A DNA stretch of 32,215 nt from an uncultured Myxococcales bacterium (GTDB taxonomy: Bacteria > Myxococcota_A > Polyangia > Palsa-1104 > JAEUJZ01), in assembly GCA_937868485.1 (NCBI GenBank), contig CALMML010000005.1, forward strand, positions 1 to 32,215, in the 5' to 3' direction. Positions 2,122 through 4,422 of this stretch are shown here, piece by piece (the first letter of the stretch is position 1; every line of letters begins with the position of its first letter). The notes under the pieces were generated by a model. It made no database searches and was not told the origin of the DNA. It worked only from the letters and a program-made list of their open reading frames with translations. The position numbers and the translations under genes are program-made.

Positions 2122-2979
2122 ATGCCTGACACCAGCAACTTTTTGACCCACGAGCACCTGCCCTTGTCTGAGGCGCGTTGGCGCGAACTGAACATGTCAG
2201 TGGTTGATGTCGCACGACGGCGGCTTGTCGGACGGCGATTCCTTGACCTGTATGGACCGCTCGGCGCGGGCGTTCAGACGGTTCACAACGATGTCTTCAC
2301 CGGCACAGAGCGCGCGGCGATTGGCATCCTGGGTGAGGAGCCGATTGCGCCGGTTCGGACGGCGGGTCGTCAGATCCTGAGCGTACCGATCCTCTACAAG
2401 GACTTTTCGCTGTACTGGCGCGACTTGCAGACGGCGGAGCAGTTCGGAATGCCGATTGATCTGTCGGCGGCTGCGGGTGCGGCGAGCTTTGTGGCGGACC
2501 GTGAAGACGACATGATCTTCAACGGAATTCCAGAGCTGAACCTGGCGGGACTCGCGACGGTTCCGGGTCGAAATGTGATGCCGCTGGGCGACTGGAATCA
2601 GGTCGGCGCCGCGCTTTCGTCGGTGACGGTGGCGATTGAGCGACTCGTCGAAGCTGGCTTTTATGGACCGTACTGTCTGGTCACGAGTCCATTTCTGTAC
2701 GCGAAGCTGGCGCGCTTTGTTGAAAACACCGGCGTCTCGGAGCTGGGCCACATTCGTGAGCTCTGCACGGACGGCGTGTTCCGATCGAGCGTTCTGCCCC
2801 GGGATCGAGCCGTGCTCGTCTCGACGGGACCGCAGAACTTTGACTTGGCTGTGGCGCAGGATTTCCGCGTCGCCTACCTTGGTGCGGAGCAGATGAATCA
2901 TCCGTTCCGCGTCTTCGAGTGTGCGGTGCTGCGCATCAAGCGCGCCCAAGCGATTTGTACGCTCGAGCCCAAACCCTAA
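2122..2979 (+). CDS. encA: Encapsulin shell protein, family 1 (linocin M18/EncA-like)
   Basis: A 285-residue HK97-fold shell protein that self-assembles into a protein nanocompartment and packages the ferritin-like protein encoded just upstream. Recognisable conserved stretches are ARRRLVGRRFLDLYGPLGAG near the N-terminus, the IPILYKDFSLYWRD segment, DLSAAAGAA, LGDW, FYGPYCLVTSP, and the C-terminal MNHPFRVFECAVLRIKRAQ followed by AICTLE. These resemble Myxococcus xanthus EncA, and the length is nearer that protein (about 287 residues, which forms large T=3 shells) than the shorter T=1 shells, though shell size cannot be read from sequence alone. An in-frame ATG at 1981 lies inside the cargo gene; the ATG at 2122 is chosen because MPDTSNFL plus the helix beginning LSEARW matches family N-termini. 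A weak AGAGAC precedes it. A possible internal promoter lies at 2072-2100. Confidence 0.95.
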   Translation: MPDTSNFLTHEHLPLSEARWRELNMSVVDVARRRLVGRRFLDLYGPLGAGVQTVHNDVFTGTERAAIGILGEEPIAPVRTAGRQILSVPILYKDFSLYWRDLQTAEQFGMPIDLSAAAGAASFVADREDDMIFNGIPELNLAGLATVPGRNVMPLGDWNQVGAALSSVTVAIERLVEAGFYGPYCLVTSPFLYAKLARFVENTGVSELGHIRELCTDGVFRSSVLPRDRAVLVSTGPQNFDLAVAQDFRVAYLGAEQMNHPFRVFECAVLRIKRAQAICTLEPKP

Positions 2980-3014
2980 ACACATCACGACACCGATCTA
3001 CAGGAGGGGACCTA

Positions 3015-3305
3015 ATGCAGGTTTCGGCGCAAGAGGAATGGCCATCTTGGCTTGTTCCGTTTTCAGCGGTTGCTGACGAAGAAGACGAAGACTTCGAAGA
3101 TGAAGACGAAGACTTCGACGACGAAGATGAAGACGAAGACTTCGACGAAGATGAAGACGAAGACTTCGACGGCGAGAGCGAAGACTTGTTCGATGACGAC
3201 GAGATCGCAGGCGACGGCGAAGACGAAGAGTTCGATGAAGACGATGACGACTACTTCGACGACGACGAAGATGAAGACGAAGACTTCGAAGACGACGAGG
3301 AATAG
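3015..3305 (+). CDS. Hyperacidic Asp/Glu-repeat protein of unknown function
   Basis: A 96-residue protein with 62 Asp/Glu and no Lys, Arg or His. Residues 1-20 form a short non-repetitive head with two Trp and two Pro (EEWPSWLVPFSAVA). From residue 21 it is almost pure D/E interrupted by aromatic residues at 27, 34, 43, 51, 59, 73, 81 and 91, mostly 7-10 residues apart, as EDFD-type repeats. The start is well supported: AGGAGGGG lies five bases upstream of the ATG, the strongest ribosome binding site in the window. The upstream in-frame start at 2919 overlaps the encapsulin gene and lacks such a site. It follows the shell gene by 35 bases and is probably co-transcribed. No family is recognised. 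A carboxylate-rich metal-binding or mineral-nucleating role beside an iron compartment is conceivable but is pure inference; an intrinsically disordered buffer or chaperone-like protein is equally possible. Confidence 0.8.
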   Translation: MQVSAQEEWPSWLVPFSAVADEEDEDFEDEDEDFDDEDEDEDFDEDEDEDFDGESEDLFDDDEIAGDGEDEEFDEDDDDYFDDDEDEDEDFEDDEE

Positions 3306-3349
3306 CGGAGCGTAACCGCGCTCACGATCAGCGGAGCTTGGGAGCCACG

Positions 3350-3877
3350 ATGAAGGCGCAAGAGTGGAACGTCACCGTCGGAAGCGGCAAAGATCAGCGC
3401 AAGCTTTCGGTGCAGCTTGAGTCGGCGGAAGGCGGTGAATACCGTCTCCGCATTGGTAGCGATGTCACGACCGTACGCGTCGCTCGCAGTGAAGCGGGAA
3501 GCTACTCGCTCATCGACGAAAACGGACGACAGCGCAGCGTTGATATCGACGGCACGCTCCCCGATTTGAAGCTGGTGATCGACGGTAGTGATGCCGTTTC
3601 CGTCGCAGTTGCCGATGCGCAGTCGCTGCAAGCGTCGGATTCCGCAAGCTCAGCCGTCGGAGAAGTTCGCGCCGCGATGCCTGGAAAGGTCGTCAAGGTC
3701 GTCTGTAAGGTCGGTGATGTGGTCAAAGCCGGGCAGCCGCTCTTGGTCATCGAAGCGATGAAGATGGAAAACGAGCTGCGCGCGGCGGGCGGGGGCCGTG
3801 TCGAGTCGATTGCTGTTCGTGAAGGACAGACCGTCGAAGGTGGCCAAGTGTTGCTGGTCCTAGGAGGTGCGGCATGA
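3350..3877 (+). CDS. Biotin carboxyl carrier (biotin/lipoyl attachment) protein
   Basis: A 175-residue stand-alone biotin carrier. The C-terminal domain (about residues 106-172) has the biotinyl fold pattern with APGKV-like AMPGKVVKV, GDVVKAGQPL, the biotinylation motif EAMKMEN with the target Lys at residue 138, and the closing VREGQTVEGGQVLLVL. The N-terminal 100 residues are a beta-rich segment (WNVTVG, YRLRIGS, SYSLIDENGR) similar to the region before the carrier domain in propionyl-CoA-type carboxylase alpha subunits. In the family, biotin on this Lys carries CO2 between biotin carboxylase and carboxyltransferase subunits. No carboxylase or transferase gene is in the window, so its enzyme partner must be encoded elsewhere. 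The ATG at 3350 is chosen over a TTG at 3338 because GGGAG lies five bases before it. Its stop overlaps the start of the next gene. Confidence 0.9.
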   Translation: MKAQEWNVTVGSGKDQRKLSVQLESAEGGEYRLRIGSDVTTVRVARSEAGSYSLIDENGRQRSVDIDGTLPDLKLVIDGSDAVSVAVADAQSLQASDSASSAVGEVRAAMPGKVVKVVCKVGDVVKAGQPLLVIEAMKMENELRAAGGGRVESIAVREGQTVEGGQVLLVLGGAA

Positions 3878-4422
3878 TGACTCGAGTCGCTTCACTGTTT
3901 GCGGCGCTGCTGCTAGTGGTCGGCTGTGCGCAGGATGAAGGCTTCTCTCGGGACGATGGCCAAGCGCCGTTTGAAGGCCGCGACATCAAGTTCCAGAGCA
4001 CGTACGTTTACTTCCCGTCGGACTTTTCGCTGTCGATCGTGCGCGACACCATGCCTCAGTCGGAAGTCTGCGCGATTCTCAAGCGCTACAGCGAGACGAC
4101 ACCGAAGCTGGCTGGCCTGCCGGTGCTGCCGTACAAAGAAGAGCACTACACGCTGGTGATGACCGTCGATTCCGTTCAGCCTGGCGATGACGTTTCGTTC
4201 GATCCTGCGGATACCGGCACAGCGGGTGACATGCGCTATGCGGCGCTGGCTCACTACGGTGTTGGCAAAAATCGTGAACCCGATTGGGCGCTTCGAGCGA
4301 GCGGCTTTGTCCGTGTCAGTGAGCTTACGCAGCACAGCCGCGTCGCTGGTAAGCTTGCGCTACGCTTTCCTGGCGGCGAAAAGCTCGACGAAGAGTTCGC
4401 GGTAGACGCCTGTCCAAAGTAG
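3874..4422 (+). CDS. Putative lipoprotein of unknown function
   Basis: A 182-residue protein with a short N-terminal hydrophobic segment ending in a lipobox (LLLVVGC, Cys at residue 18), so it is predicted to be lipidated and anchored in the envelope. The mature part has no domain I recognise; visible features are an acidic linker after the Cys, the segment DIKFQSTYVYFPSDFS, two further Cys residues (in SEVCAIL and in the terminal DACPK) that could pair in the periplasm, and a beta-rich C-terminal half. The start ATG overlaps the stop of the biotin carrier gene (ATGA), which implies translational coupling; a second ATG directly follows and could be used instead. The functional link between a cytoplasmic biotin carrier and a lipoprotein is unclear. 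Confidence 0.75.
   Translation: MMTRVASLFAALLLVVGCAQDEGFSRDDGQAPFEGRDIKFQSTYVYFPSDFSLSIVRDTMPQSEVCAILKRYSETTPKLAGLPVLPYKEEHYTLVMTVDSVQPGDDVSFDPADTGTAGDMRYAALAHYGVGKNREPDWALRASGFVRVSELTQHSRVAGKLALRFPGGEKLDEEFAVDACPK

Follow-up and report, generated by a model that had tools for sequence, protein, structure and literature searches.

The EncA/EncB/EncC system of Myxococcus xanthus is a family 1, iron-storing encapsulin system in which a shell is paired with ferritin-like cargo, and encapsulin targeting peptides follow the consensus L(F)-x-V(I)-x-x-L(I) (PMC11202242). Mms6, which acts in magnetosome biomineralisation, has a disordered acidic region that binds iron through its carboxylates (PMC7041794). 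Acidic regulatory ORFs of Mg2+ transporters, such as mgtQ and MgtL, are associated with ribosome destabilisation (PMC8092293; PMC11282234). Here, we describe a hyperacidic gene that lies beside an encapsulin shell gene in a 32,215-nucleotide stretch of DNA from an uncultured Myxococcales bacterium, referred to below as the window. The shell and the ferritin-like cargo of this locus are homologous to those of M. xanthus and the cargo bears a targeting-peptide-like tag, while the hyperacidic gene is an addition to that plan. No mention of the acidic protein was found in the literature searched, including a large encapsulin survey (PMC8346489).

The hyperacidic gene and selection on its charge

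The features of the locus are collected in Table 1. An earlier note on this DNA had placed the acidic gene directly downstream of an encapsulin shell and proposed a link to iron handling as worth testing. The iron-related setting is genuine: the best PDB match of the shell is M. xanthus EncA (7s4q, 4e-89), and the cargo, which matches EncB, ends in the targeting-peptide-like sequence WSVGALKR.

Table 1. Coordinates of the features discussed; positions refer to the window except for the relative in genome G005.
Feature	Position	Strand	Evidence
EncB/EncFtn-type ferritin-like cargo gene, 141 aa	1641–2066	+	Pfam EncFtn-like, 7e-7; NCBIfam EncB_fam, 3.3e-18 (below that model's curated cut-off); PDB EncB 7s5k, 1.6e-9
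Family-1 encapsulin shell gene, EncA-type, 285 aa	2122–2979	+	Linocin_M18, 4e-68; NF041155, 3e-81 (over cut-off)
Shine-Dalgarno AGGAGG of the acidic gene	3002–3007	+	duplex of -10.8 kcal/mol to the anti-SD; alignment of G000, G002 and G003
Hyperacidic protein gene, 96 aa, net charge about -62	3015–3305	+	translation; codon-position conservation and charge kept in relatives
20-residue head MQVSAQEEWPSWLVPFSAVA with P-x-W-[L/I] motif	3015–3074	+	two alignments; motif scan; motif in 6 of 6 relatives
Asp/Glu tail with Phe/Tyr punctuation, predicted disordered	3075–3302	+	AlphaFold2; overlaps a degenerate 24-bp DNA repeat (TRF)
Biotin carboxyl carrier protein gene	3350–3877	+	Biotin_lipoyl, 4.6e-20; in 5 of 6 genomes the first gene 3' of the acidic one
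Lipoprotein gene, no known family	3874–4422	+	no Pfam/NCBIfam match; located behind the carrier gene in those relatives that were read, G005 among them
Acidic relative in G005, head PPTWLLSP, Tyr-punctuated acidic tail	L198:9144–9410	-	start inferred from an AAGGAG site

The ORF at 3015–3305 is a real gene. Its product (MQVSAQEEWPSWLVPFSAVADEEDEDF...FEDDEE) contains 62 Asp or Glu among 96 residues (35 D, 27 E) and no Lys, Arg or His, and it begins 35 bases after the shell stop at 2979, all as the earlier note had reported. The intergenic gaps of the gene run around it measure 35–44 bases in the window, so that the acidic protein is probably made together with the compartment; no terminator-like site was found in 2979–3015 or in 3305–3350. 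The AGGAGG site is conserved within the genus and strong, but it is not the best ribosome binding site of the window, as had been claimed, since among nine genes checked that of the lipoprotein gene at 3874 is stronger (-11.5 versus -10.8 kcal/mol).

The composition of the acidic ORF lies far outside what chance would give: its Asp/Glu content peaks at 90% per 30 residues, and no other long frame in the window exceeds 33%. A halophile-type acidic proteome was ruled out as the cause of this acidity, the median pI of the window's long frames being 7.9 in a set that includes a few probably non-coding frames. No Pfam or NCBIfam profile matched the protein at E up to 1, and it has neither a membrane helix nor a metal-binding motif other than the carboxylates themselves. 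AlphaFold2, working from a shallow alignment of five sequences, returned a mean pLDDT of 61.8 and a pTM of 0.14 with no structural elements, and the protein is thus predicted to be intrinsically disordered. The aromatic residues were described earlier as recurring about every eight positions, which is right as a mean (spacings of 7, 9, 8, 8, 14, 7, 1 and 10) but only marginal as a regularity: 263 of 5000 shuffles were equally regular, and regular spacing was not significant in any of the four relatives tested. The spacing is in part a consequence of the 24-bp DNA repeat that underlies the tail, beneath which a 6-bp repeat is also present.

The window protein and its relatives in G001–G004 can be aligned along their whole length and carry net charges of -61 to -70 (five of the six members known), although their lengths differ through indels. 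Comparisons between genomes show constraint at codon positions 1 and 2 against drift at position 3 (Fisher p 4e-4 to 7e-10); third-position divergence from the window reaches 31–52% within the genus, yet only 1–3 of about 55 acidic codons or columns change from acidic to non-acidic. The exchange of Asp and Glu, for its part, proceeds near the rate of transversion at fourfold sites (0.31 versus 0.30 for G000/G003, and 0.11 versus 0.16 and 0.19 versus 0.28 in the other pairs). Because the first two positions are held while Asp and Glu interchange at this rate, these comparisons clearly point to selection on charge, with residue identity nearly free, as for a disordered polyelectrolyte. What selection maintains is the total negative charge, the aromatics (which all six members retain within their acidic tails) and the short Pro-x-Trp-Leu head; it does not maintain the order of Asp and Glu. 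The same observations leave very little room for a functionless simple-repeat ORF that merely drifts. The DNA repeats under the tail and the indel-driven variation in length are what such drift would leave behind, but the codon-position asymmetry, the constant charge, and a head and Shine-Dalgarno site conserved through that third-position divergence speak strongly against it. Even without any link to iron, the gene would be a clear natural case of bulk-charge selection in a bacterial disordered protein.

Distribution and linkage to the encapsulin shell

Each of the six sequenced members of one family (f1) carries a single relative of the acidic gene, and none of the other Myxococcota sampled does (379 genomes). 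A first profile search hit once per genome in five members of f1 and missed the G005 relative, which was recovered by a pattern of ten consecutive acidic codons. A profile including the G005 sequence matched only f1 within the order, G001 being dropped through the filter of that search, and elsewhere in the phylum gave weak, chance-like matches only. Runs of ten acidic codons also turn up elsewhere in these genomes, at several loci, and acidity by itself does not single out the relatives; the P-x-W head does. P-x-W-[LIVM] was found within 40 residues upstream in only six of 20 distinct strongly acidic frames, exactly one per f1 genome. G002 also encodes other poly-Asp and Asp-Asp-Asp-Ser repeat proteins (L192 and L190), which are unrelated by their heads and show that such repeats are fairly common here. 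The six acidic genes are probably of common descent, a reading that for G005 draws on a short motif.

The order comprises 14 genomes, and encapsulin was found in all six of family f1 and in none of the remaining eight, so that both genes are present in the former and neither in the latter. The shell lies directly upstream of the acidic gene in four of the six (G000, G001, G002 and G003), and the gene order of the window recurs in G001, G002 and G003. In G004, a single Peptidase_S51 gene separates the two; this insertion (L038:865–2433) is lipoprotein-like and of the cyanophycinase type. The five linked genomes span three genera, and the EncB cargo gene joins the run wherever the contig reaches that far.

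The sixth genome differs. The G005 relative is isolated: it is oriented divergently from a deoC-like cluster for nucleoside catabolism, its next same-strand gene lies about 300 bases downstream, and other contigs carry encB-encA (L037), the carrier gene (L080) and a second encapsulin (L088). Its tail is punctuated by Tyr, about one every five residues, and those of the other members mainly by Phe. The second encapsulin of this genome (L088:7947–8801) is divergent; it directly follows a PDZ/C-terminal-processing protease gene and precedes an FHA-GGDEF gene, these neighbours being named from reading the sequences, with no obvious cargo nearby.

The linkage to encapsulin that the earlier note had proposed therefore stands in part: it is direct in four genomes, spans one intervening gene in a fifth and is absent in G005, whose copy is at an unrelated locus. 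Outside f1, no such gene lies beside the shell in any of 26 encapsulin-bearing Myxococcota genomes; ten encapsulin loci outside Myxococcota were also surveyed. We regard the link as real but loose. The main f1 shells form a single clade with full support (100/100), and the co-occurrence of encapsulin and acidic gene consequently amounts to one event. The f1 shells have net charges of -3 to -6, compared with -8 to -17 in the other relatives listed, which is only suggestive of a connection between shell charge and the acidic gene.

This pattern bears on a general-purpose role, in which the protein would be a polyanion acting as a mimic for DNA- or RNA-binding proteins, a chaperone-like solubiliser or a former of condensates through aromatic 'stickers', its head would bind some partner and its encapsulin neighbourhood would be incidental. 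The solitary G005 member, which keeps head motif and acidity with no encapsulin beside it, and the aromatics of all six tails fit such a role, while clustering with encapsulin in five of the six genomes and across three genera does not; on balance we consider it possible, though rather unlikely.

The conserved head and the genes downstream

The Trp/Pro head, which the earlier note had suggested as a docking element, is conserved. Docking by a standard targeting peptide, however, was not supported for the window protein, whose head scored within shuffles when known and native tags served as reference (p 0.36–0.72). The heads of the window, G001, G002 and G003 proteins were likewise no better than shuffles (p 0.06–0.88) and lack the residues of the L-x-V-x-x-L consensus. 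The G004 head, LSLGAL, scored above the native cargo tag of the window (p about 0.01–0.02 against shuffles, with known tags and uncorrected), a resemblance in sequence that is suggestive. That the acidic protein is a cargo which enters through its head and templates an iron mineral inside the shell accordingly seems very unlikely to us: the G004 score and head residues compatible with a hydrophobic 1/3/6 spacing are in its favour, and the four other heads just described are against it. Contact between the conserved Trp head and some partner is plausible.

On its other side, the acidic gene is followed directly by the carrier gene in all five encapsulin-linked genomes, in G004 at a distance of only 3 bases, and adjacency to the carrier (five of six genomes) is as strong an association as that to the shell (four of six direct). 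The protein could hence assist the biotin carboxyl carrier protein as a solubiliser, spacer or carboxylase regulator. This placement 5' of the carrier, together with the peptidase gene that intervenes on the shell side in G004, lends the idea some weight, but carrier and acidic gene are apart in G005, and no acidic gene adjoins the carrier homologues of the order's eight other genomes or those at the best loci examined in the phylum, which makes such a role improbable. The lipoprotein gene shares four bases with the carrier gene and accompanies it in G005 as well, which suggests that these two form a functional pair.

A position inside an operon behind a strong Shine-Dalgarno site, as for mgtQ (PMC8092293; PMC11282234), also raises the idea of a regulatory ORF that is hard to translate, in which the acidic nascent chain would destabilise the ribosome and its abortion would sense Mg2+ or the state of translation and tune the carrier gene. 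An acidic run starting at about residue 21 and selection on charge rather than sequence are compatible with this. The product nevertheless has 96 residues with charge selected up to the C terminus, compared with 8 in mgtQ, and the G005 member has no close same-strand gene downstream. No conserved RNA structure was found over the carrier start (folding z -1.9, 0.2 and 0.1 in three genomes, two of them no better than shuffles), and there were no Rfam matches. A short ORF of the mgtQ/MgtL type with an RNA switch was rejected on the grounds of the 96 codons and this folding, and regulation by translation in the wider sense has, in our judgement, a low probability.

A possible cation buffer and its nearest known counterparts

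The explanation that we favour, tentatively and well short of conviction, is that the protein is a polyanion which buffers cations, probably iron, and is produced along with the ferritin-type encapsulin but not packaged by the usual tag. In five of six genomes the gene shares a run with the EncA shell gene, and it would probably be co-expressed with the iron-storing compartment. Its roughly 60 carboxylates could then provide a cytosolic cation sink of low affinity and high capacity, which would hold Fe(II)/Fe(III) soluble near the encapsulin and buffer what is supplied to the ferroxidase compartment or leaks from it; the Trp/Pro head would make the contact to a partner. That the gene is co-expressed, that the protein binds cations and is specific for iron, and that it lies outside the shell are all steps that we infer. 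An iron buffer is favoured because EncA/EncB is an iron-storage system, and because of the 35-base gap free of a terminator-like site, the conserved strong Shine-Dalgarno site, the gene order in G001–G003, the conservation of charge, the predicted disorder and the co-occurrence with encapsulin in f1 only. Against it are the 26 other encapsulin genomes with no acidic gene beside the shell, a co-occurrence confounded by the single clade, and a protein whose only potential metal-binding feature is its carboxylates; the unlinked G005 copy and the linkage to the carrier gene keep our confidence from being higher. In a more specific form, which we think unlikely, the protein would be a novel encapsulin partner, a soluble and untagged polycarboxylate that buffers or templates iron from outside and is selected for charge and aromatic punctuation. 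A dedicated cytosolic polyanion beside the shell would, if true, be a testable missing piece in the entry and exit of iron in encapsulins.

Among the systems described, Mms6 resembles the acidic protein in having a disordered acidic region, a likeness that is a functional analogy only. Unlike the present protein, Mms6 has a membrane helix, and within its short acidic motif it is specific Glu, not Asp, that matter for ferric binding; in the protein described here the two residues replace each other freely along a stretch of about 75. The acidic ORFs mgtQ and MgtL share with this gene the strong Shine-Dalgarno site and the position inside an operon (PMC8092293), but the present ORF has 96 aa, its head and charge are conserved, no conserved RNA switch was found with it, and one copy has no close downstream gene. 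The head is comparable to encapsulin targeting peptides (L/F-x-V/I-x-x-L/I) as a short hydrophobic motif, most closely in G004, and differs from them in the window protein, where it does not rise above shuffles. Compared with the M. xanthus type of locus, the hyperacidic gene is extra, and it is not found beside the shell in the 26 encapsulin-bearing Myxococcota sampled outside f1. We class the locus as a variant of the ferritin-type encapsulin joined to a lineage-specific polyanion rather than a new system.
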